Shown here: positions 1,614-54,225 of the stretch, one piece after another | How the letters are laid out: every line of letters begins with the position of its first letter | How positions within the stretch are numbered: the stretch's first letter is position 1 | The notes under the pieces: generated by a model | The model's database searches: none | What the model saw: only the letters and a program-made list of their open reading frames with translations | What the model was told of the DNA's origin: nothing | Assembly: GCA_008704415.1 (NCBI GenBank) | Contig: VXIS01000159.1 | Span: 1 to 64,000, forward strand | Origin: Sphaerosporella brunnea | Lineage: Eukaryota > Ascomycota > Pezizomycetes > Pezizales > Pyronemataceae | DNA: 64,000 nucleotides | Reading direction: 5' to 3' | Made by a program: the position numbers and the translations under genes

Positions 1614-2910
1614 CTTAAATACGAGGCACGAGCACCGGGGTTTAAAGGCGATTCATTCCCGAAATGGACGAGGATGCTGGTGCGCGTATCGCATTGCGAT
1701 GCTTGTGGAAGTGAAATACCTTCAGTATGAGGCACGAGCAACAATATGAGTCGAACCACCTCCCTTCTGGCTGTCAACCGCACCCAAGCCTGTTCCGTAT
1801 CTAGGTAAACCATCTCGGTAGTTTCCGGTACAATGGCACCAAGGCGGACGTGATTAAACTTGCATGGCACCCTCCTAGTCATCGATAGAAAGAGCATGTG
1901 CCACGGCCTAGCTCTCGGGATGACGACGGGGGGGTTTGAAGGCGATTCATTGCCGAAATGGACGAGGATGCTGGTGCGCGTATCGCATTGCGATGTTTGT
2001 GGAAGTGAAATATGCACAGCGTCCTCAGGAACAGTTGCGGCCGGTGACAGTGGTTTCGGCGCGGGATTGAGCTCGCACGGTCGGATCTCACGGCCGTTAT
2101 CCACGCTGCGGGTTTCGTCGTCGCACTTGGCTCGAACCGATGGAGGAAGGCGCATTTCGTGGTCATGTGCCTCCGCCAGCCGAGTTTGACCGTTCAAATC
2201 AACATTTGGCATATCCGTGACCTGGTTGCTGAGTTGCTCGTCGATCTCGGTGTGACTCTTGTTTACGGACCATATGCCTCCACCGAAATGGCGGAATTCC
2301 TTGTCGTCCTGGCCGTCTGCGTCATCCATGTCTGTTTCGACAGCTTGTTGCTGAGCATACGGCTGCTCAGTCGGCGCAGCCGGAGTGTCCTCATCACTGG
2401 ACGTGTGACGATCCTCCTCGTGCTTGGAATTTCGATCTTCCTCCTCATCCTGCTGCAGTGCTCAGCCGACGCCAAGACCACGGTTGCGAAACAACTTACC
2501 GAGTCTCCCTTGGACCTCTTATCCTGCGCGACCCTCATGTTTCTAACGTTATCCAAGCAGAGTTTGTGCACCAGCGCGTCGACAGCCGTGGTGGGGATCA
2601 CCTTCTTCCTTTTCGGGTCCGCGTTCAACTGCGCGGTCACCTGGTTGACGAGGTTGCGCATCGCCTTCGCCCCCCACGTGCTGTAATTCTGAGTCAGTTC
2701 GAAGCCGTGCTGCTTGCAGAGGTCCTGCACCTCGCGGCGAATATTGAGGCTGGCAAGCTTGTCGCGGGGCGGAATCCCCAGCAGCTCGCACAGCAAGTAG
2801 TGGTCCTTGTACAGCGGCAGCCGCACAACGGCGACGCGCATCTTCTTGATGCCCTCCGCGTCCTCCGTGCTGCGCGCGCGTTTCGTGATTCTCGTTCGGG
2901 TGTCGGGCAT
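1586..2910 (-). CDS. Gene 1: two-exon protein of unknown function (paralogue of gene 2)
   Basis: I do not recognise this family. Exon 1 is 2910-2500 (137 codons from ATG at 2908-2910). The intron is 2499-2453 (GTAAGT...CTGCAG, phase 0). Exon 2 is 2452-1586 (stop included), about 425 residues in all. The N-terminal domain (about residues 30-125) contains YKDH, a PRDK-x-AS stretch, a QNYSTWG motif and LCLDNVR. A Glu/Asp/Ser-rich linker follows. The C-terminal domain contains TSILVHF, a PPVVIPRARPWHML segment and EMVYLDTEQAW. The same order of motifs, and the intron at the same place and phase, occur in gene 2 at 41892-43125. The acceptor is a CAGCAG (NAGNAG) site, so one Gln may be optional. 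The last 60 or so residues are a partial repeat of the TSILVHF segment and may be read-through into duplicated sequence. No function is inferred beyond a soluble two-domain protein. Confidence 0.65.
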
Positions 2911-23206: not shown

Positions 23207-23252
23207 AAACTGCTGGATTTGTAGATAGTTGTGGAATGGAAGAGAATTGTAT

Positions 23253-24709
23253 CGGTTATTTCACCCTACACCCCCCTCCAGAGACCGTAATTCACCGTCT
23301 ACCCCCCATATTAGATTATTTGACCCTCTACCCCTCAACCCGTCGAGCGAGAATTAATCACTGTGAGCTGTACCAAGTGACAAACCTCGATCCCCGCGAC
23401 AATCCCCATCCCCTGTCCGCGCGACAACCGTCATCCCCCATCATCGCGACAAGCTAGCTTCTGGTTCACCAACCGCAGGTGCGCAGACCGGTCTTTCTTG
23501 CTTCACCCGCTGACCCCGCTACAGTCAACATGTCAGACCCCACCGCTGAGGGGTGGCAGTAAGTGGTATGTAAAGGTCTCAGCCCATTCTGGGCTCGACC
23601 CAGGGTGTCTATCCAGCTAGCAACATCAGGTATCACTCAACCCGTGTCCTAACCCCACACCATCCATCACTCGGCCCATATCCCGCACCCTACAACCGCG
23701 CGCCCTGAAGATGTGGCTAGAAACTCAGACTCGGAGTCGCAACGTCCCGGCCAAGTTGGTGTTCATGTCGACTGTCCGGCTGTGAAAGTTGGGGATAGGT
23801 TTTCAACCTTCCAGGATTTCACGGCATGCCTGCGTCTCCATGCGATTTTGAACGGGTATTCTATCCGTTTTGTGGAGTCCGACAAATCTCGGAATGCGGT
23901 GCAGTTCGGAGGCAGCGATCAGTGCGACTACAAAGTGCGTGCCGACTGGAACAAGAAGGAGGGGGAGGAGAAGGTCACGGTTGTGGTAGGCACCATCTGA
24001 TTACATGTCCTCCTACGTCAAAAACCGAACCCTCATCGACAGCTACAGCGGAGACTTTCCCCCTGTCGATAGAGAAGATGTTCGCAGTATGAAACAAGGC
24101 ATTTTGGTGGACAGGGAAGACAACTCCGATACTGACTCTGACGCGAGTACGGTATTGTCAGAGCCCCCGTTAGACGAGTGCGAGCCACCAGCGACTCGTG
24201 CTCCCCGCGGCAGCCCCCCCCCCAAGAAACGTAAGCGCAATAGGGCCGCTCAGACAGGCGTTTATATTTTTTTCGACGTTTCTGGATTTAAGGCCAGTTT
24301 CGGCGTCAAATGGCTTACAGACATCGATAAACAGCCGGTTGAAAATTCGGATATCCAAGTCAAAAACGCCCGTCTGAGGGGCCGTAATGGGGAGAACGAC
24401 GGTCTGAGAAAAAAACGGCAAGATCAGGCTGCGCAGCGCGCTCCAGTTCGTTGTAGTACGTGTCGTGGGGTGGGCCATAACGCACGTAATTGTACTCGCT
24501 CTCATACTTAAAGCAGTCGACCAGTTTGGCGGGATGATAGCAGAGTTTGTATTTTAGGCACGGGAATCTATCATGGTTTGGGTTGGTGTTAGTAGTCGCG
24601 TATACGCTCGCTGGACGGGTTGAGGGGTAGAGGGTGAAATAATCTAATATGGGGGGTAGAAGGTGAATTACGGTCTCCGGAGGGGCGGGCGTGTAGGGTG
24701 AAATAACCG
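23253..24709 (+). mobile_element. MULE with about 105-bp terminal inverted repeats, internally deleted
   Basis: The left terminal repeat starts CGGTTATTTCACCCTACACC at 23253. The right one ends AGGGTGAAATAACCG at 24709, with AATTCACCGTCTACCCCCC and CCTCTACCCCTCAACCCGT shared internally. The same repeats bound the smaller element at 39493-40170. Flanking 9-mers (GAATTGTAT and ATCATTTAA) do not match, so the target duplication is lost. Its coding part is described separately. Confidence 0.85.
23713..24511 (+). pseudogene. MULE/FAR1-type transposase: N-terminal domain joined to C-terminal zinc knuckle
   Basis: The first part (23713-24000) encodes a FAR1/WRKY-GCM1-like DNA-binding start: FSTFQDFTACLRLHAILNGY, RFVESDKSRN, then QCDYKVRADW. 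The second part (24005-24511, another frame) has a KKRKRNR basic stretch and ends in RCSTCRGVGHNARNC, a CX2CX4HX4C zinc knuckle. The central transposase domain with the DDE residues is missing. The matching central piece of such a protein is seen at 33629-34170. The element would depend on a transposase made elsewhere. Confidence 0.75.
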
Positions 24710-24913
24710 ATCATTTAAAGTTTGGAATTTTGTAAAACAAACACGCTTCAAATTGTGGACTTTTGACTGTCCGCAGACGCGCCGCGGCGATACAGAATAC
24801 CAATGGATTCTTTGTAAGCAACAGTAGACAAGAAACCCTCCCATCCAAACGCCATCTGACGACCTGTAACTATGACCGCATTCCATCATCACCCCATCTC
24901 CCATTCAGAGAAG

Positions 24914-37054: not shown

Positions 37055-37885
37055 TGCATAATCGTCGAGATCGACGGGCCGCCCGCAGGGCGTCACGCCA
37101 AATTCCATGTCGTCGGGAGAGTAGAAAATGATCTGCGGTAAACCGTCGACTTTGGCCTCCGTCAGGTTGAGGTGCATTTCGATTTCGGCTTTCATTGCTA
37201 GATGATCCCTTCGTGACAGCTTCACGGCGATCAACGTTGCGCTGCGTAGTGACCTAACACAAACCAGATCCTTTGGAACAGCCTTCAGCTTGAACGCCCC
37301 GGCTCTGCTCATCTTGGTCGTATTGAGAGGGCGTTCCACATTGCCTAGGCTGTTTAAAAACTTGAAAGCCTTCGTCTGCTGGTCCTCGTCGGCGAGGATA
37401 TATTTGAGCACTTCTGGAGCCTTGTAAAAGTCCATGGGACCATAATGCATTCCGATCCGCTCACCGTTTATAATCTCCAGCGTGATCAGCACGTTTTCAG
37501 TGATGTTCATTATCATAACCGAGAACTTTCGCCGTTCAGGCTGGGCTTGAGCCATGCGCTCGATGTAGTCCACCCCTTGTACTTGCATGTCGTTGGTGAT
37601 TCTCACGCTATGGGACTTCATCTCGACAATAGTGCGGACAAAGGTCGCGTGTGCCGAGTTGATACCAGGGCTGCAGATGGTGATAAACGGTGCTCGCTTC
37701 TTCAAACATTCCAGTCCGTGGCGGTTGAAAACACGAATGCCTTCTGCCAGTATGCTGCTGCCGCACAGCTCGCGCTGGAGAATTTCGCAGACGAAGGTGT
37801 AGATAGTCTCTTTCTTGCCATTCTTAGCCATGCCACGTTCTGACTCCCACCCCGAAGGCTGCGACCTTTCTGCACGCTCTTTCAT
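37055..37885 (-). CDS. Kinase-like protein, truncated after the N-lobe
   Basis: The frame from ATG 37885 (or MAKNGKK at 37831) encodes ETIYTFVCEILQRELCGSSI, an EGIRVFNRHGLECLKK stretch, then LEIINGERIGMHYGPMDFYK. After residue 210 it has LRSATLIAVKLSRRDHLAMK, AEIEMHLNLTEAKVDGLPQI and DMEFGVTPCGRPVDL. The last part has the shape of a kinase N-lobe: a V-K strand, a helix with Glu, a hinge ending in a P-x-G-x-P turn. No HRD or DFG segment follows, because sequence beyond about 37055 is a hAT fragment, and the annotated frame end at 36872 is read-through. The family is not named. It resembles kinase-like proteins next to FunK1 or Crinkler-type genes in fungi, but this is inference. Confidence 0.5.
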
Positions 37886-37915
37886 CGTCTTGAGCGTTTC
37901 GAGATCGGCCGCAAG

Positions 37916-38196
37916 TCAGCTGCTCTTGTCGGGGGTTTTGCGCTTCTTGCTGGGGCCGAGCGGGAACTCGAGGTCTTTTTGGAAGCCGGCTTTGTTCGAG
38001 AACATTTCCCAGAGGTCGGAGCGGGTTATGGTACCTGGTAGTGAGGTGACGGGTGGAGTCAGTGGGGCGGTGATCCAGAAGGAGGGGAAGGGGAGGTGTG
38101 CTCGAAGGCAAACCAGGGATCTGTTCGCAGCGGTCGAGGTCACGAAGTGCTTGTCCCAGTTGCTCCTGACTGGCGAGCTGTTGCTGCAGAAGGGCC
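37916..38196 (-). pseudogene. Coiled-coil gene, 3' part (split by the 7-kb composite hAT)
   Basis: Exons 38196-38114 and 38034-37916 are joined over a 79-nt intron (38113-38035, GTTTGC...CTGAC...TACCAG, phase 1). The first encodes LLQQQLASQEQLGQALRDLD, a coiled-coil segment. The last encodes TITRSDLWEMFSNKAGF, DLEFPLGPSKKRKTPDKSS and a stop at 37916. The 5' part of the same reading frame lies at 45199-45290, on the other side of the transposon. Removing the transposon and one target duplication rejoins the frame exactly. The protein is unidentified. The KKRK tail may be a nuclear signal. Only 30 bp separate its stop from the kinase-like ATG at 37885. Confidence 0.6.
38189..38196. repeat. 8-bp target site duplication, left (GAAGGGCC)
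   Basis: GAAGGGCC is directly repeated at 45199-45206, immediately outside the outer ends of the composite hAT. Eight base pairs is the standard hAT duplication length. Confidence 0.85.
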
Positions 38197-39161
38197 CTGG
38201 GGTCCCAATAGTCCGGCCAGTCCGGCGTTTAGGCTCACCTGAACCGGACTGTTTGAAACGGGCTTTCGAAATTCCGGCCCGTTTGGATCAGGCATTTTTG
38301 AGCGCAACCCAGGTGCCTACAGGGCCCGATCAGGGCAAGAAAATTCCGGTGCCTACAGGGCCCGCCAGGCACCTGACGAATCATTCCTGTAACAAGCAGG
38401 AAAGGACTACATAAAGAAAGTATACTACCATTTCCGCGGCCCGCTGTTCCAATTGGTAAAAATGGGCAGGCCACGGTTGAATAACCTTGAATTGAGTTGT
38501 CAACAGCGGGCTGCACCGGAGGCGAGGCAACATGTACAGTATATGTAGGCCAAGCAGCACGGGCATAACTGAGGATGGAACAGTCCGACACCCCAAAAGC
38601 ACGCTCGTCTAACAAAGCTTTGACCGAGTCCAAACACTATTCTCAGGCTTGAGGGGACGTTTAGATGTGTGAGCATCACGTCAGGATTGGGAATCTTCTC
38701 AAACCTCCGCAAAATCTACGAAAATACGAAAAAAAAATACGGGGTTTTCACCAGTAAAATGCGGCGTAATGTGCAAGATGCCGTCCGCCATGCCCTTTCG
38801 GTCGCGCGAATCTTGGATCTCTCAGCATCACGTCAGATTTGCAATTTGTTACAAACTCCGGCTCATACCCACGGTGCAATGATTGGATCCTGCCGACGAC
38901 AAAAGTGCGGGGGATCAAGAAGGTTTTTGATGTCGATCGACACTGCACATTTTCGTGAACCGCCGGGATAGCCCGACCATGACGACGATCTGCGCTTTCA
39001 GCGTCGCCCTGGATAACCGGTCCCGGGCGGCACCTATCAGATATCCAGGCTTTGTGAACGTCAGCGCGAACCTATCAGGCTGCACCAACTGTCGGCCCGA
39101 CCTGACTTACTCTGTCGGGCCCCGTTGGGACTGGCAGGCGCCCGGACTATTGGGACCCCTG
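38197..39161. mobile_element. hAT family-1 copy 1 (965 bp, non-autonomous)
   Basis: Both termini are present (CTGGGG..., inverted CAGGGG... at 39161). The last 290 bp (38870-39161) are very similar to 44890-45198: shared GGTGCAATGATTGGAT, CAAAAGTGCGGGGGATCAA, CGACCATGACGACGATCTGC and CAGATATCCAGGCTTTG. It contains no complete coding region. Confidence 0.8.
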
Positions 39162-39440
39162 GTCCCGGCCGCCCCGCAGATTGTGCTCATTCAGAACGAG
39201 CAGTGGCACAAGGATTTGCAAATCCTCCAGGCCTGCGCAGAGAAAATGGAGGTTATTGAAAGGCTCATTAACCAAGTCTACGAGGAGTTCACGATGCGCG
39301 TCCAGGGTGACTTCTTGAACCCCCAGCAGGCTAATGCCCTTGTGGATCAGCAGCTTGACCATAATTGTGTGCTGGCTGAGCAGTGTTTGGAGCCTGTTTC
39401 ACATCTGAAAGTTGCCGCGGAGGACGAGGAAACCCGTTAA
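39162..39440 (+). pseudogene. Captured exon fragment, helical protein C-terminus
   Basis: Directly after hAT copy 1 the frame reads IVLIQNEQWHKDLQILQACA, EKMEVIERLINQVYEEF, NPQQANALVDQQLDHNC and HLKVAAEDEETR, then a stop. CCCCGCAG just before IVL could be an intron acceptor. It looks like the last exon of a coiled-coil-type protein from the donor locus where hAT copy 1 originally sat. The gene is unidentified and its 5' part is absent. Confidence 0.5.
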
Positions 39441-39492
39441 ATGGGGAGGCTTGAGAAAGCATCATTGGTGTAACAGGTTGAGTTTAAATAAA

Positions 39493-40170
39493 CGGTTATT
39501 TCACCCTATACCCCCCCCTGGAGACCGTAATTCACCGTCTACCCCCCATATCGGATTATTTTACCCTCTACCCCTCAACCCGTTCAGCGAGCGTACACGC
39601 GACTACCAACAACAAATCAACCATGGTAAATTCCCATGTCTAAAATACAAACTCTGCTACCATGCCGCCAAACTCGTCCACTGCTTTAAGTATGAGAGCG
39701 AGTACAATTACGTGCGTTATGGTCCACCCCACGACACGTACTACAACGAACTGGAGCGCGTTGCACAGCGTGATATTGCCATTTTTTTCTCCGACCGTGG
39801 TTTTCCGCATTGCGCTTAAGCTTCTTGGGGGGGAGCACGAGTCACTGGTGGCTCGCACTCGTCTAATGGGGGCTCTGAAAATACAGTACTTGCGTCAGAG
39901 TCAGTATCGGAGTTGTCTTCACTGTCCACAATGTAGACGATGTCTGATTGCGCCCGCTTCCCTCTGCCCATCGTAGGCGAAGTGACCTGAAAATGGTATG
40001 ACGATTGTGGCGCGGACGTGGGATGGGAGTTGTCGTGCGGACGGTGGTGGATGGGGATTCAAGGAGATTTGTCACTTGGTACAGCTCACAGTCATTTGTT
40101 CTCGCTCGAGGGGTTGAGGGGTAGACGGTGAATTACGGTCTCCGGAGGAGGGTATAGGGTGAAATAACCG
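39493..40170. mobile_element. 678-bp MULE derivative with 9-bp target duplication
   Basis: The ends CGGTTATTTCACCC (39493) and GGGTGAAATAACCG (40170) are flanked by a perfect TTAAATAAA direct repeat (39484-39492 and 40171-40179). Internal sequence 39600-39960 is the reverse complement of parts of the MULE at 23253-24709 (the zinc-knuckle region and the AGACAACTCCGATACTGACT region). It is therefore an internal deletion derivative of that family. Confidence 0.9.
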
Positions 40171-40179
40171 TTAAATAAA

Positions 40180-41060
40180 TTAAGGTCGCAGTGCCACACC
40201 TGCGCGTATCTGTGTCTCTGTTCCTGTGATTCAACTTTCCAGTGCGGATGATACAGATTCTGAAACGCACGGTCACCCACAACTATCCAACACCGAACGG
40301 ACGCACAAAACTCTTGACCACCGCCATTGCTTCAACCAAGATTCACCGTTGTATGTAGGCACCGAGTATCGAAACACTGTAAGGTCAATGGCCTAAACTA
40401 AGTATGACCGTGAAAGCAGATCGAGTGAGTGACAGCGAAGGAGTGATGGCAAGTGCTCACATACCGTGACCGATATCACCCAACATAGTGAGTTAACGTC
40501 TATCAAGAAAAGGTTTCTTGTGCGGGGTGCCGTGCAAAAGCAGAGTTCTGAAAGTCACGGCGCCACGATCAGCAACCCCAAGGTGATTTTCTATGCCGCC
40601 CTGCTTTGATGCCAACTGGCTGCCTTTCCTCAATTGTAGCTGGACTAGATCTAGGTTGAAAACCTTCTCTCAAACAGTCATTTGACCGCAACGGTTTCCG
40701 AATTCAACGCCACGTTCCTCCACAAGATAAAGGGAGCGGTATATAAACGACAGGTTTCTGCACCTTTCTTTACTACGTCATTTGGAATCTTCTAGCCTTC
40801 GCAGGGCAAACCGTGTAGGTTTTATGACGATGACTGCGATGGAGGAACACCGGCAGCTCCGCCTGCTGCGACAAAGTCAAAACAGAAACGCTCCGGGACG
40901 CCTAGACCGACGCAATTGCCGACAAAAGTCGCACGGGAGGTCGCTTCCCCACTCCCCATGATGCACTAGAAGCACTGAGCGCCGAGCGACCCACTGGTAG
41001 TACGCCCAACGCCCGGCAATCCAGACCCGACAAATCCGATTCCCCCCCCCCCCCGCGATA
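40180..41060. other. Cargo sequence without recognised gene
   Basis: No domain-bearing ORF. It lies between the MULE and the LINE-like piece inside the composite hAT. Confidence 0.3.
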
Positions 41061-41068
41061 CGCCCGAG

Positions 41069-41482
41069 GCCAAAGAGGGGTGGATAGAGGTTCAAAGGAA
41101 GAAAAGCAGGCGGCCCTTGGTACGCATCGCGACACAACCTTCAGGGAAGGGTGTCCCATCCAGGGCCCAGGTGGCTCGAGGCGGTGGTGTATGCATCAAC
41201 ATTTTCATAGGCAAAGCTGCTGACACAAAGACGGACAGGCCTCGCAAGCACATAGGGGGGAAAAAGAAGAAGGAGAAGGCTAAGGAGGAGGGGAAGCAGA
41301 GGGAGCAGCGGGCTCCGTCCGTGCGGGTTTGAAGAGGGGGAGAAACATAGTCCTTTCTGCATACGTTTTGCGATTTCCTTTGTTCTCATGGAGCTTGTTT
41401 TCAGAAGGTAGCACAGTCTTTCTTCTTTATATATGCCATGGCCGCAAGCGGCCGAATCCAATATGATTAAAACAAAACAAAA
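41069..41482 (+). mobile_element. LINE fragment: ORF1-like tail and conserved 3' end
   Basis: The frame to 41332 reads EGWIEVQRKKSRRPLVRIAT, then DTKTDRPRKHIGGKKKKEKA, a basic C-terminus that could be LINE ORF1. The last 80 bp (GGTAGCACAGTC... GGCCGCAAGCGGCC... ATATGATTAAAACAAAACAA) match the 3' end of the LINE at 53326-54225, including the GGCCGC/GCGGCC hairpin. ORF2 is missing. The ORF1 call is tentative. Confidence 0.55.
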
Positions 41483-41891
41483 TGAGGTTACGCGGAGGCG
41501 GAGGATGCAGCAGCGCAGAGGAATCCGGATCGGCCCGCTCGAGAGCAGGCTGGTCAGAGTGACTACGATGCCGCGGAGGGAATTGATTCGGACGTTGGTC
41601 TGAAAAACTCCCCGTGGGTATAATAGACTGGACAACCAAGTGGTCTTGTACTTGGCAACTCTTGCACTGGAACCACTGTTATCGACGGAATCACAGCCTC
41701 TAGATTGTCCGCCAGCACGACTGTAACGTGCCCTAAGCCGCACCATCGGCAGTGACTATCACACGACACCTTCAGCCACGTTTGCAACCTCTCTCGCGTT
41801 TGACCCTCTCTGTCATGCTTCCACTTCCCCCACGCCGTTTATTGATCTGCACCCCCCCCCCCCCCATCCTCACGAAAAAAACACCACCAGA

Positions 41892-43125
41892 TTGCAGACA
41901 CTCCCCCGACGCTGCCCACCAACTCCAAAAAAACGCACGCGCAGCCGCGACGCCGCCCCACCACCCGGACGCCAACGGAAGCGCTCTGCTCGCATCCAAC
42001 CCGGTCGCCCGCACTACAAAGACCACGATTCTCTGTGCGTGCTGCTTGCTATCTTGCCGCGCGACAAATTTGCAAGCCAGAGCCTGCGCCGTCAAGCCCA
42101 AGACATCTGTCGCCAGGATGGCTACGAGCTGAAGCAGAACTACACCTCCTGGGGGGAGCAGGGCATGGAGAAGTTGGTCAAAACCGTGACAGACAAGATG
42201 AATGCGAAGCCGGACCGGAACACGGTCTTTACAGCTGAGGCTATCCGTGCGCTGCTGCGCAGAATTTGCTTGGATAATGTGCGCAAGAAGAACGCAGCCA
42301 AAGAGAAAAAGTTACAGAACGATCCAGCTGTGGGTAATCCGATATCCTTTGCTGATCTTGCTAACCTTCACGTGAAACCAGGATGGTGACGGCGCGGTTC
42401 CCCTTCCATGGCAGGAAAATGACATTTCTGGTCCTCCAAGCGACGACCCGGTTCCTGCTTCCCTTCAAGAACGCGATATGCACATCTCTCTGAGCGGTAT
42501 TGAAAATGACGGCGCGGTTCCTCCAACCGATGACCCGGTTGCTCCTCCCCTGCAGGAACGCGGCATGCACATCTCTTAGAGCGGTGCTGAAAGAGACGGC
42601 TCGGTTTCTCTCCCCTTGCAGGAAGACGACATTTCTGATACTCCAAGTAACAACCCTGTTTCTCCTCCCGTGCAGGAACGCGGCATGCACATCTCTCTGG
42701 GCGGTGCTGAAGGTGACGGATCGGTGTCTCTCCCCTTGCAGAAAGACAACCCGGTTCCTCCTGTTGACGGCGCCGGGTCAAGCGGCCCGTCTCTCGACCC
42801 CAAGAGGAGTATCCTCATCAAATTTGTGGACACAATCCGGCCTCCAATGGTTGTGCCACGGGTCAAGCCGTTCTACATGGTGTACCACCAACTGGGCATT
42901 GTGTTGGGACTGAATACGGACTGGCTGCTGATAACATACGTCCCGGGTCGTCAATCTAGCTGGTGCAATCTGACCGATCAGACCTGGCGGCGGCTAGTGG
43001 TCAACAACAGAGTTCAGAGTCTTATGTTGATCCTTTGCAATTTCGGATTTCCCTTTGATGATTGCTGGATGAATGGGGTTGGAGGGACAAGAGAGAGCCT
43101 GGGAGGCGAGGCGAGGGGGGGCTAA
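41892..43125 (+). pseudogene. Gene 2: paralogue of gene 1 with a premature TAG
   Basis: Exon 1 (open from about 41892 to 42329) encodes HYKDHDSLCVLLAILPRDKF, ASQSLRRQAQDICRQDGYEL, QNYTSWGEQGMEKLVKTVTD and RRICLDNVRKK. The intron is 42330-42381 (GTGGGT...CTAAC...CCAG, phase 0). Exon 2 (42382-43125) has three Pro/Asp-rich repeats containing ERGMHIS, then KRSILIKFVDTIRPPMVVPR, FYMVYHQLGIVLGLNTDWLL and QTWRRLVVNNRVQSLML. Domain order and intron position equal those of gene 1. TAG at 42577-42579 replaces the CTG seen in sister repeats, so the copy is probably dead or mis-sequenced. No in-frame ATG is found for exon 1. It lies inside the composite hAT. Confidence 0.65.
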
Positions 43126-43129
43126 TTGT

Positions 43130-43620
43130 AGGGTTGCATATACGTACGAGTGAGGAGCAGTGGGGAGCGATGTTCGGATGTAGATAGACATCGGGTCCTC
43201 AACCCTCTCTCCCCAATCAACCAACCTACAACCACCTACGCCCCTCTACACTGATGCCACCTCGTTTTTTTTTTTAGTTTCTCTTCAAACCTGCCTGCTG
43301 CAGTAACCGATCGCGATTGCATTTGCTGCCGCCGAAGCTGACTGTTATATTATTGCTCCTTAATTCAGCTCCGCAGAGGAACCTTCTGAATGAAGTGTCG
43401 AATTGGCGAGGGTTAAGACCGCTTACAGTTTGTTCTTACTGGTGAACTGATCTCCATCCCTATTACCTTGATTCGTCTTGCACCACCTCCCAACGACAGG
43501 ACAACATGCTTGACGAGCTGTTGAGCATCGCCTTTATTCTTCCAAATCAATGGAACGTGCACGGTGGCGATAATCCGGTTCGTCTAAAAGGAAATATGTG
43601 TGCAAGCCACAAGCATGATT
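43130..43620. other. 3' flank of gene 2, no gene
   Basis: It contains a (T)n run at 43266-43276 and no coding evidence. Confidence 0.3.
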
Positions 43621-43721
43621 TCCAGGGGTCCAAATATTCCGGCCAGTCCGGCTTTTAGTCTCCCCTGAACCGGACTGTTTGAAACGAGCTTTTGAAATTC
43701 CGGCCCGTTTGGACCAGGCTT

Positions 43722-43994
43722 TCAAAATCTCCGCCCCCACCCCCCCCGCTGTTCCAAGTCACTCAGCATACGCTCAACCTGATGAATTTGAGAACCCGGC
43801 ACATATACCAGATGTTCCCTGGCCCAGGGTTGGAGGCATTCTGTGGCTTCCACAACGTCGTCTCCCGGTTGGAGGCATTCTGTGGCTTCTACAACGTCGT
43901 CTCCCAAGGAACCCGCTGATCCGTAATAGTTTATCGACCCCTGGGAATTGTTAGTGATGCTCCCATCGACACCAACTTCAAATGACACTCTCAC
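43722..43994 (-). pseudogene. hAT transposase C-terminal fragment with internal duplication
   Basis: Minus-strand reading has LGDDVVEATECLQP directly repeated as GDDVVEATECLQPWAREHLV. The repeat comes from a tandem duplication of about 33 bp (GGAGGCATTCTGTGGCTTC twice at 43830-43890). VIEA-x-ECLKSWA-like sequence is typical of the extreme C-terminus of fungal hAT transposases. Confidence 0.55.
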
Positions 43995-44304
43995 CCGATG
44001 AACACACGTTCTGCTTCAGCAGGCATCGCTGGAATGGCATTGAGCTCAACTCCCAGGCGAGGCAGATATCCCATTGGAGCCTTGGTCCATCGCTTTAACG
44101 CAGTGGTCTTGCATGCCAGCGAATCCTGCGAGCGGGAGTTGCTGAAATCGCCCCAATGCATCGACTAGGGAGCTTGCCAACCGGGCGCGCATTTTCTGCA
44201 TTCGGCATAATCACCGACCAGACCTAATTCAGGATACCGGGCACCGGCCGGCACCTATTACATATCCAGGTTTTTCTTATGCCGGCCCGTTTGGACCAGG
44301 CTTT

Positions 44305-44520
44305 TGTTGACGATAGGTTTCACGCAGTGGACACTAAGAACGTAGGTGAAGAGATATATTGCAAGGTACGGAGGTCAGACGCTCGGTTCTGCACTTAAGG
44401 TGCAGAAACGACGCTAGCCCTAACCTTAATCCAACTACATCTCTCATCTAGTAGGGCAGTTTATACTCGGATGCCATATAGAGGATAGAGTGACGCTGTG
44501 GCGTCACTCCATACTCAACA
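44305..44520 (+). mobile_element. Solo LTR, 216 bp, with 5-bp target duplication
   Basis: It starts TGTTGACGATAGG and ends ATACTCAACA (short inverted TGTTGA/TCAACA ends) and is flanked by GCTTT at 44300-44304 and 44521-44525. It contains CACTTAAGGTGCAGAAACG and a TTATACTCGGAT stretch. It is a clean product of LTR-LTR recombination. Related, more decayed copies lie at 3541-3776 and 10085-10228. Confidence 0.9.
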
Positions 44521-44648
44521 GCTTTCCCAAGCCAGACCCAAGTGCCTACAGGGCTCGATCAGGGCAAGCAAATTCCGGTACATACAGGGCCCGCCAGGCA
44601 CCTGACGAATCATTGCTCTAACAAACAGGAAAGGACGACATAAAGGAA

Positions 44649-44939
44649 TTATACTGCCATTTCCGCGGCCTGCTGTTCCACATCAACCAGCACTGCTTCG
44701 ACCTGGCAATCTTGAGAGCCCGCTCCATAAACCAAATCTTCCCTCGCCCAAGATTTCCAACATTCAATCGCTTCAATGACATCGTCACCCAGCTTAGAGC
44801 GCTGGTCTGTGATGGTGTAACGGCCTCTAGGAAGGTAGTCAGCACTGTACTGTTTGGACATAAAAACACCGGTTGAGCTTACCCCCTGAAAACTACGGCT
44901 CATACCCGTGGTGCAATGATTGGATGCTGCCGACGGCAA
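44649..44939 (-). pseudogene. hAT transposase C-terminal fragment
   Basis: Minus-strand reading has SKQYSADYLPRGRYTITDQR, then SKLGDDVIEAIECWKSWARE and an EQQAAEMAV tail. The R-x-LGDDVIEA-x-EC-x-KSWA block is the hAT C-terminal signature. It is homologous to 43722-43994. Confidence 0.6.
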
Positions 44940-45198
44940 AAGTGCGGGGGATCAACAAGGTTTTTCATTGCAATCGGCACTGCAAATTTTCGTGAACCGC
45001 CGCGAGAGCCCGACCATGACGACGATCTGCGCTTTTAGCGTCGCCCTGGACAACCGGGCCCGGGCGGCAACTATCAGATATCCAGGCTTTGTTAACATCG
45101 GCCCGAACCTATCAGGCTGCACCAACCGTCGGCCCCACCTGACCGACTCTGTCGGGCCCCGTTTGGACTGGCGGGCGCCCGGACTATTGGGACCCCTG

Positions 45199-45290
45199 GA
45201 AGGGCCTTCTTGCCTTTCAGTGACGCATTGCTTTCCTTCAGAGTTCCAATCTGTTCCTGCAACGCAGTGATATGTTTCGGTGCCACAAGC
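45199..45290 (-). pseudogene. Coiled-coil gene, 5'-side part (split by the composite hAT)
   Basis: Minus-strand reading HITALQEQIGTLKESNASLK then GKKA runs straight into the GGCCCTTC target duplication and the transposon end. The reading frame continues in phase at 38196. Heptad-like hydrophobic spacing supports a coiled coil. Upstream the frame reads RLVAPKH and may begin at an intron acceptor (TTGTAG at about 45296-45301). The rest of the gene is not identified. Confidence 0.6.
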
Positions 45291-45299
45291 CTACAACGC

Positions 45300-46030
45300 C
45301 GCCTGTGAGATGGTGTTCTTGTCAACGTCGCTGCATTACAGACTGCCATCGGTGATTCTGGTTCAATTCCTTCGGTTGAACTGCGTTGCCAACATCTCTA
45401 TCTCAATCGTCTCCGGCTATGGGAGATCATCTCTGGTGTCTTGGCTATTTCTCGGTTTGAGGACTTGAGCTTAGATGCTGTGACAATCAAAAGCGAAGGC
45501 GATCGAGTTCGGGGTTTTCAGTTGCCTCACGCTGCGTCCTTGTGTTTTGTGCGAGGTGTTATTGGAGGAACCAAATTTCATCTATCACTCGGTGAAAGGG
45601 AGGAATCAGGGTTCGTGCCGAGTGGGGTTTGCTTGGAGAGAGTTTACGACAAGCACACACAACTGAACCTCACTCCACAGCTCCCCTCCACCACCATCAC
45701 CTTACCATCACAATGGAATGGTTCTGCCACGCAGCCCCTCTCGATCAGGGCTGGACCACTGAAGAGTAGACATCCTGCGCTGTTATGGTCGTCACTGGCT
45801 GCGTCGTCAGACGGACAACAATGTAGATCGTTCACATCATGCTTCGCAAAATGTATATATCTGCGTGTTGCCGCAACCCGATTATAGAGTATGCCGACAA
45901 GGATTGCGATACTGTTTCGCACGAGATGCTCGTCAGTTCCTGCATACTGGCGCTGCGACAGGAAAGAAGCCGGCGGTCAGGAACGTAAGGGACGCAGGCG
46001 TTGATTGAATATGTAGGAAGGGCGTTGAGC
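45300..46030. other. Possible further exons of the split gene, or none
   Basis: The plus strand has a frame with WEIISGVLAISRFEDLSLDA (about 45418-45480), which looks faintly like F-box/LRR text. The minus strand has AVCNAATLTRTPSH. Neither is convincing. Confidence 0.25.
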
Positions 46031-51845: not shown

Positions 51846-53325
51846 GACCCGTTCAGGTGATGAGCCCCATTCCAGCGATCAATCCCATTCCACCCCCGTT
51901 GAGTGATCAGCCCCATTCCAGTGATCACCCCCATCGCAGTCCCGTTCGAGTGATCAACCCCGTTCCGTCCGAGCCCCGTTCGAGTGATCAATCCCATGCG
52001 AGTCCCGTTCGAGTGATCAACCCCGTTCCGTCCGAACCCCGTGCGAGTGATCAATCCCATTCCGTTTGAACCCCGTTCGAGTGATCAGCCCCATTCCAGT
52101 GATCACCCCCATTCCAGCCCGGTTCGAGTGATGCACCCCGTTCCTTTCGAGCCCCATTCCAGTGATTGACCCCTTTCCAGCCCCGTTCGAGTGATGAATC
52201 CCATTCCAGCCCCGTTCGAGTCATCAATCCCGTTCCGTTCGAGCCCCGTTGGAGTGATCACCCCCATCCCAGCCCCGTTCGAGTGATCAGCCCCGTTCCG
52301 TCCGAGCCCCATTCGAGTGATCAGTCCCATTCCAGCCCCGTTGGAGTGATGAATCCCATTCCAGCCCCGTTCGAGTGATCAACGCCGTTCCGTTCGAGCC
52401 CCGTTCGCGAAATCCCACTCCAGCCCCGTTCGAGTGATCAATCCCGTTCCGTTCGAGCCCCGTTGGAGTGATGAATCCCATTCCAGCCCCGTTCGAGTGA
52501 TCAACCCCGTTCCGTTCGAGCCCCGTTCGAGCCCCATTCGAGTGATCAATCCGATTCCAGCCCCGTTGGAGTGATGAATCCCACTCCAGCCCCGTTCGAG
52601 TCATCAATCCCGTTCCGTTCGAGCCCCGTTGGAGTGATCACCCCCATCCCAGCCCCGTTCGAGTGATCAGCCCCGTTCCGTCCGAGCCCCATTCGAGTGA
52701 TCAATCCGATTCCAGCCCCGTTGGAGTGATGAATCCCACTCCAGCCCCGTTCGAGTCATCAATCCCGTTCCGTTCGAGCCCCGTTGGAGTGATCACCCCC
52801 ATCCCAGCCCCGTTCGAGTGATCAGCCCCGTTCCGTCCGAGCCCCATTCGAGTGATCAATCCCATTCCAGCCCCGTTGGAGTGATGAATCCCATTCCAGC
52901 CCCGTTCGAGTGATCAACGCCGTTCCGTTCGAGCCCCGTTCGCGAAATCCCACTCCAGCCCCGTTCGAGTGATCAATCCCGTTCCGTTCGAGCCCCGTTG
53001 GAGTGATGAATCCCATTCCAGCCCCGTTCGAGTGATCAACGCCGTTCCGTTCGAGCCCCGTTCGCGAAATCCCACTCCAGCCCCGTTCGAGTGATCAACG
53101 CCGTTCCGTTCGAGCCCCGTTCGCGAAATCCCACTCCAGCCCCGTTCGAGTGATCAATCCCGTTCCGTTCGAGCCCCGTTGGAGTGATCAGACCCATCTC
53201 AACCCCGTTGGAGTGATCAACCCGGTTCCGTTCGATCCCCATTCCAGCTCCGTTCGAGTGATCCACCCCGTTCCGTTCGAGCCCCATTCCAGTGATTGAC
53301 CCCATTCCAGCCCCGTTCGAGTTTT

Positions 53326-54225
53326 TGTTTGTTTTAATCATATTGTATTCGGCCGCTTGCGGCCATGACATATGGAGAAAGAAAGGACTATGCTACCCCC
53401 CGGGCCATAAAAGACCCGCTACAGAGGCCTGCGGCCCTTCTAAGGAAAAAGGACAGAGGAAATTATACCAGGTAAAAAGCGCACCAAGGGGAAGGAAAAA
53501 GAAGAAGGAGAGAGTCATTACATAGCACCCCTATCGGGCCAGCAGCCAATTTTTGTAGCACGAAGGAAATTCAGAACTGCCTCTGTGCACCTGTCATGCG
53601 CCAGCAACGCAACCACAGAAGTGGAAGGCCAGCGTTTCGCTCCCCCACCCTTCTTGGTGGCGTCCTTCACCGCTTTCCATAACACCATTTGCTCCATCTT
53701 CCATCTCTTACAGAATTTGAAGAGGTGGCTGCGGGTCTGAGAGGCGCCCTTTCCGCACCACCAGCACTTGTCATCCGTCCGGCGGCCTGTCCAGCGGAGG
53801 TAGGGGGCAGTTGGTGTCTTGTTCAGCCTCAGCTGGTAGAACCTCGAGGCGATTGTCTTTGGAGCCTTGGCCGCCATGTGGTTGGGCCTTTTAGGTCTGC
53901 TGTGGTAGGCCTTAGGCCTGCAATGCTTTTTCAGCCAAGCGTCACGGTCTTCTTGTTTTGCTAGGGAGACACTGCGACTGACAGCAGCTAGGGAGGCGGT
54001 GCCAATAAGATCATCCGATGGGGGTTGCTGTGCTCGGTTGCTGCTTCTTTGGCAAACCGGTCTGCTAGTTCGTTGCCCAGAACATCTTTATGGACAGGCA
54101 CCCAGCGGTATTCTATCTGCCATCCTTGAGCATTCAACACTGTCTCTGCACGGACAATGCGTGTGAGTGGCCATTGGCCTGGCCCGGGTGCGCCGTGTTG
54201 CAATCGTGTTAGCGCTGCTTGTGGA
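53326..54225 (-). mobile_element. LINE (non-LTR retrotransposon), 5'-truncated
   Basis: On the minus strand it carries the end of ORF2 (RNase H and zinc-binding tail), a roughly 190-bp 3' UTR with a GGCCGCAAGCGGCC hairpin, and a terminal GATTAAAACAAACAAAAA. Both sides continue as minisatellite, so it inserted into the array after the array had expanded. The 5' truncation at about 54225 is typical of incomplete reverse transcription. Confidence 0.85.
53518..54203 (-). pseudogene. LINE ORF2 C-terminus: RNase H end and CCHC zinc-binding domain
   Basis: The first part (54203-53988) reads GWQIEYRWVPVHKDVLGNEL and ADRFAKEAA, the last block of a LINE RNase H domain (the catalytic-His region and the ADRLAKEA motif). 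After a frameshift, SLAKQEDRDAWLKKHCRP leads into IASRFYQLRLNK, CWWCGKGASQTRSHLFKFC (C-x2-C-x8-H-x4-C) and MEQMVLWKAVKDATKKGGG, ending at 53518. RNase H plus a zinc knuckle fits Tad1-like fungal LINEs. The reverse transcriptase is missing. Confidence 0.85.

Follow-up and report, generated by a model that had tools for sequence, protein, structure and literature searches.

A composite hAT-like block in the ascomycete Sphaerosporella brunnea and its probable origin by macrotransposition

Introduction

How do two short, non-autonomous transposable elements come to stand at the two ends of a single block that shares one target-site duplication? The question is raised by a locus in the ascomycete Sphaerosporella brunnea, a cup fungus of the Pezizomycetes, within the first 64,000 bases of contig VXIS01000159.1 (assembly GCA_008704415.1; contig C67, bases 1-64000), a stretch referred to below as the window. 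Here a 7,002-bp block at 38197-45198 is bounded by the left end of one hAT-like element (copy 1) and the right end of another (copy 2), both belonging to the same family (family-1) and lying in the same orientation, with GAAGGGCC directly outside each end. We consider it likely, from comparison of the sequences, that the two copies and the cargo between them moved as a unit in a single macrotransposition. Macrotransposons formed by Ac/Ds elements in maize were reportedly described by Huang and Dooner in 2008. The parts of the block and its flanks are as follows.

38189-38196, no strand: left target-site duplication GAAGGGCC, an exact 8/8 match to the right one
38197-39161, plus strand: copy 1, a long-type family-1 hAT-like non-autonomous element of 965 bp, right terminus intact
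39162-39169, no strand: inner flank of copy 1, GTCCCGGC, the presumed remnant of an old copy 1 duplication
39162-43622, no strand: cargo between the copies, 4,461 bp
43615-43622, no strand: inner flank of copy 2, ATGATTTC, different from GAAGGGCC and GTCCCGGC
43623-45198, plus strand: copy 2, a short-type family-1 element of some 775 bp, enlarged by about 800 bp of extra internal sequence
45199-45206, no strand: right target-site duplication GAAGGGCC, an exact 8/8 match to the left one

One duplication around two elements

The preliminary description of this stretch had claimed that a perfect 8-bp duplication flanks the two copies on their outer sides, and that each has a different 8-mer at its inner flank. 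Both claims hold: the outer pair agrees at 8/8 positions (38189-38196 and 45199-45206), while the inner 8-mers are GTCCCGGC and ATGATTTC, and the flanks of each copy taken by itself agree at 3/8 for copy 1 and 1/8 for copy 2. The composite structure is thereby confirmed, and structural features of a macrotransposon are present, namely two two-ended elements in direct orientation, other DNA between them, and a single outer duplication. The 8-mer GAAGGGCC occurs four times in the window, near chance expectation, and its weight as evidence comes from its placement at both outer ends and not from its rarity. Among 2,000,000 random pairs of 8-mers from the window, 127 were identical. When the left flank of every element was compared with the right flanks of all other elements (31 elements in all, counting copies 1 and 2), one of the 930 cross pairs reached at least 7/8, and this was the left flank of copy 1 with the right flank of copy 2; the next best were six pairs at 6/8.

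The size of the duplication is the one usual for the family. Apart from copies 1 and 2, both ends are available for 16 family-1 copies, whose flanks match at 8/8 in 10 and 7/8 in three, and are unmatched in three (L041, 4/8; L084, 2/8; L046, 0/8). The 13 copies of a second family, family-2, have flanks matching at 8/8 in five, 7/8 in two, 6/8 in one and at most 4/8 in five. These counts cover copies with both ends in the loci that were fetched, and similarity searches list further family-1 copies. Three family-2 copies were excluded as repeats: L072 has the flanks of L071, L077 those of L073, and L070 the left flank of L069. L048 (no left end detected), L011, L026 and family-2 ends inside the window also stand outside the counts. 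The left end starts with CAGGG in 11 of 15 other family-1 copies and with one altered base in the remaining four. A typical terminal pair is CAGGGGTCCCAATAGT / ACTATTGGGACCCCTG, and CAGGGGTCC is likewise an end sequence of the family-1 type. hAT elements have short terminal inverted repeats of the CAGGG type and produce 8-bp duplications. By both features, family-1 is hAT-like.

The interrupted gene and its uninterrupted paralogues

Support independent of the flank match comes from the gene into which the block is inserted. Kinase and DUF6826 domains are present in P0002, an annotated paralogue of 551 aa, and the two parts of the interrupted copy in the window are the following.

37064-38189, minus strand: portion of a kinase/DUF6826-type gene copy lying 3' of the insertion
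45200-45298, minus strand: portion of the same gene copy lying 5' of the insertion (P0002 residues 57-89)

Residues 57-89 of P0002 align with 45298-45200 and residues 93-118 with 38189-38112, which places the block between residues 89 and 93. The preliminary description had proposed a search for the empty site, and four loci in the same genome run uninterrupted across it, namely L050 (C619), L051 (C179), L053 (C122) and L055 (C103); these are paralogues and not alleles of the same locus. In all four, the matches to the left and right flanks are separated by merely 10-20 bases or so, and the block is therefore an insertion. Together with the exact outer duplication, the four paralogues show well that it is one insertion unit. 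Beside the site, 21 bases carried by L053 and L055 are missing from the window, but L050 and L051 also lack 12 and 21 bases there, so this stretch varies in any case. The match of the right flank to the paralogues is short (59-76 bases), after which the gene copy in the window diverges, and L050 matches again at 45533-45817. Furthermore, the interrupted copy contains an in-frame stop, from which it appears that the target was probably a decayed or partial gene copy already before the insertion.

Two copies of independent origin

Copies 1 and 2 are 91% identical across three aligned parts. Measured against the majority sequence of 18 family members, each copy diverges by about 4-6%, equally at the left and right ends. 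Of the 66 columns in which either copy departs from the majority, 38 are private, and one change is exclusive to the two copies. With 91% identity and mostly private changes, copies 1 and 2 most likely represent independent insertions, neither of which served as the template for the other. The best identity of copy 1 to any other copy is 93% (40 of 525 candidates scored), and for copy 2 the values are 97% across about 100 bases and 96% across 308 (40 of 728 candidates scored).

The internal structure of copy 2 is itself unusual. Its left 100 bases are 95% and its right 676 bases 91% identical to L040, with about 800 extra bases intervening. This extra stretch, at approximately 43723-44520, lies between element positions 100 and 96 and has GCTTTC at each border; it includes a body resembling family-2 (81% identity to L068) and a short left-subterminal repeat. 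A test for mosaicism by parts of copies 1 and 2 gave no clear pattern, although the test is a weak one in a star-like family whose nearest relatives vary.

How the block may have moved

Under macrotransposition, the starting point would be a donor locus that had received two non-autonomous family-1 elements in independent insertions, both pointing the same way and separated by a few kilobases. A transposase supplied in trans would then have brought together the outer ends of the pair, left from copy 1 and right from copy 2, and not two ends belonging to a single element. Everything between the paired ends would have been excised and inserted into the kinase-like gene copy, with one 8-bp duplication made around the whole. 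We infer the pairing of the ends, the trans-acting source of transposase and the move by cut-and-paste in one event, the last of these because no donor site was found.

The evidence that best discriminates among the possible routes is found at the edges of the cargo. Repair from a template or re-replication would keep the source sequence, whereas cut-and-paste need not. Both cargo edges were searched as DNA in 50.6 Mb of assembly (640 contigs), with all candidates scored (1/1 and 3/3), and matched the window's own copy and no second one; one of the searches also returned short matches to C57 (58 bases) and C99 (52 bases), located some 400 bases away from the edge. Single-copy edges argue against templated copying and favor cut-and-paste of the pair. 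The sequence searched is about 1 Mb smaller than the published assembly of S. brunnea, which is given as 51.6 Mb in 872 contigs and 99.34% complete by CEGMA (PMC6908789). The absence of a second copy may thus also reflect a missing contig or an old loss of the source. The joint move of both copies with some 4.5 kb between them, as the preliminary description had put it, is supported by the outer duplication, the uninterrupted paralogues, the independence of the copies and the single-copy cargo edges.

Several observations weigh against this reading. The second base of the left terminus of copy 1 is altered, CTGGGG in place of the family's CAGGGG, which corrects the earlier description; we presume that the change arose after the move. 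A search of the assembly for the footprint pattern of a donor locus gave five matches against three for a control, none with both full 8-mers; the excess is treated as chance, and the donor scar was not found. The nearest relatives of copy 2 shift by part, from L046 at the far left to L007 next and L006 at the right, and its left end shares two changes with L046 alone, a copy whose own flanks are unmatched. Sequence exchange between family-1 copies may therefore have taken place. Unmatched flanks in 3 of 16 family-1 and 5 of 13 family-2 copies indicate that rearrangement around such elements is not rare. At the one locus examined for it (L085), no autonomous element with family-1 ends could be tied to a hAT frame. 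Finally, when partners were sought for other copies with unmatched flanks, L041 as a left member gave no matches, and L046 as a right member gave two one-mismatch matches, both on other contigs, against two for the control; neither search revealed another composite.

Alternative explanations

A first alternative starts from one element at GAAGGGCC that suffered a double-strand break and was stretched into the present block by repair from an ectopic template. The template would have been either a pair of family-1 copies 4.5 kb apart or, with template switching, two separate loci. Such repair would likewise leave GAAGGGCC at both outer ends and unlike 8-mers at the inner flanks, and both the family-2-like stretch inside copy 2, which implies that template switching within elements may occur, and the variation of nearest relatives by part are in keeping with it. 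However, the template should persist, and the searches for the cargo edges found no second copy; the copies are just 91% or so alike and, within the power of the weak test made in this star-like family, have no clear mosaic pattern. Ectopic repair is thus improbable.

Composite Insertions, which arise by reversed-ends transposition during replication, pose a similar case. Here two facing ends are inserted while the flanking DNA is re-replicated and joined, a route described for Ac/fAc in maize p1 alleles that predicts 8-bp outer duplications and unrelated inner flanks (PMC4270019). The likeness extends to transposon termini that bound other DNA. In contrast, the described insertions contain segmental duplications (PMC4270019), whereas in S. 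brunnea the searches turned up no further copy of the cargo edges, and we hold an origin by this route to be improbable as well.

A third possibility is that recombination between two copies released a DNA circle, composed of a hybrid element and the 4.5 kb, which then integrated by homology into an element resident at GAAGGGCC. This fits the topology of the block and would leave no second copy of the cargo, in agreement with the searches. Nevertheless, this route presupposes an element already in place and two recombination steps, in which the partners would be short elements about 91% alike, and the mosaicism test, weak as it is, gave no clear signal, so that this origin is very unlikely.

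Least credible is an assembly artefact in which 4.5 kb was joined via repeated family-1 copies into the true site of a single element: both joints do lie within repeated elements, and a mis-join at such a site could mimic the outer duplication and keep the paralogue match, a further point against macrotransposition, but the copies diverge from the other copies scored (at most 93% identity for copy 1 and 97% for copy 2), and the published assembly was built from PacBio reads of 10-kb libraries at about 908x (PMC6908789). As a separate observation on the assembly, contig C602 (10,108 bases) scores equal to C124 in two different searches (L034/L035 and L058/L059) and may be its near-duplicate.

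Comparison with macrotransposons of maize

In maize, a macrotransposon bounded by Ds and Ac mobilizes up to 100 kb (PMC3260210), and excision of a 28-kb macrotransposon left a modified 8-bp duplication (PMC9910405). The S. brunnea block resembles these Ac/Ds cases in that the outer ends of two hAT elements are used jointly, the DNA between them is carried along, and an 8-bp duplication or footprint surrounds the whole (PMC3260210; PMC9910405). It differs in that both ends are provided by short non-autonomous elements, that the host is an ascomycete, and that movement is read from the sequence and not observed.

The compound element Ds-l4-483 (7,344 bp) is a close parallel in size, in having an element at each end and a duplication at the outer end, and in its trapped sequences, which include transcribed DNA (PMC3260210). 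However, the first copy in Ds-l4-483 is itself flanked by that duplication, and the second is a truncated duplicate of the first (PMC3260210). The inner flanks in S. brunnea differ, the copies are 91% alike, and one change is exclusive to both, findings that speak against a compound of this type formed by duplication. The two copies also resemble the families of hAT MITEs (miniature inverted-repeat transposable elements), which are short and non-coding (PMC3517528), but they differ in acting as the ends of a larger unit. Ends of the CAGGG type and 8-bp duplications are features of such MITE families too.

Among the papers listed by searches of the open-licence PMC literature, hAT macrotransposition is treated mainly for maize, and no description of a fungal hAT macrotransposon was seen. 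Two fungal texts name "alternative transposition" in general terms only (PMC4905642; PMC6679389), and a third paper does not mention Sphaerosporella (PMC12730594). The block is probably a natural fungal case of the macrotransposon type known from maize. If so, short non-coding hAT elements can relocate unique host DNA in ascomycetes, and matching outer flanks with non-matching inner flanks offer a simple signature for genome scans.

Further composites and flank-sharing pairs

A broader proposal, that pairs of short non-autonomous hAT elements in this hAT-rich fungus repeatedly serve as ends of larger units and relocate unique host DNA without a dedicated cargo element, is speculative and rather unlikely at present. 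If it were true, L041, L046 and L084 would be ends or leftovers of further composite events; taken by themselves, these three copies are possible products of ectopic recombination or possible ends of other composites. Two other pairs of family-1 copies were considered as composites and rejected. The direct pair L003/L084 on C569 has no matching cross pair, and L003 has its own 8/8 duplication, while in the inverted pair L005/L042 on C118 there is an 8/8 duplication at each copy.

Some family-2 pairs have flanks in common. L071/L072 (C408) and L073/L077 (C319) are each inverted on one contig, and L069/L070 lie on two contigs (C441 and C318) and share the left flank alone. This suggests that the flank-sharing pairs are duplications or assembly palindromes.

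The cargo

The DNA between the copies contains four recognizable parts.

39162-39440, plus strand: open frame of 92 codons with a terminal stop, a single-copy orphan in DNA and protein searches
39491-40172, no strand: terminal-inverted-repeat element with ends AACGGTTATTTCACC; related sequences occur at 23250-24719 and in other parts of the genome
40846-41487, plus strand: repeat piece, about 69-82% identical to its many relatives, its last part matching 53323-53397
41551-43120, plus strand: gene paralogue with internal repeats, about 66-78% identical to pieces on C91, C201, C179 and C214 and to window positions 2546-2817

Apart from the edges, the genome-wide similarity searches scored 40 of 1,135 candidates for the cargo, 40 of 86 for the interrupted gene and 40 of 517 in one further search. 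As a protein, the orphan frame had no relative beyond the window's own copy, one of the searches being limited to proteins of about 93-296 aa. Pfam gave no family above cut-off for three cargo proteins.

Of the contents named in the preliminary description, the gene paralogue is borne out by the resemblance of 41551-43120 to window positions 2546-2817 and to C91, among others. What had been called a MULE is indeed an inverted-repeat element, at 39491-40172, but its assignment to that superfamily was not confirmed. Likewise, the LINE piece is a repeat with many relatives, while the LINE label has a weak basis, a zf-RVT match under the Pfam cut-off in a frame near the matching stretch 53323-53397. 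The LINE-like piece and the inverted-repeat element may have been aboard at the time of the move or may be later arrivals.

Sources of transposase

Since family-1 elements are non-autonomous, their transposase would come from elsewhere. Genome-wide, all 150 scored candidates (of 451) matched the hAT dimerization domain, and at least 150 such matches make for plentiful sources of transposase. At L085 (C224:122150-123350), a frame with this domain is followed, after a few hundred bases, by a family-1 fragment whose right end is intact; the frame could not be shown to belong to that fragment. Several frames with the hAT dimerization domain exceed 700 codons, and one trio has equal score and frame length, which may reflect recent hAT activity.

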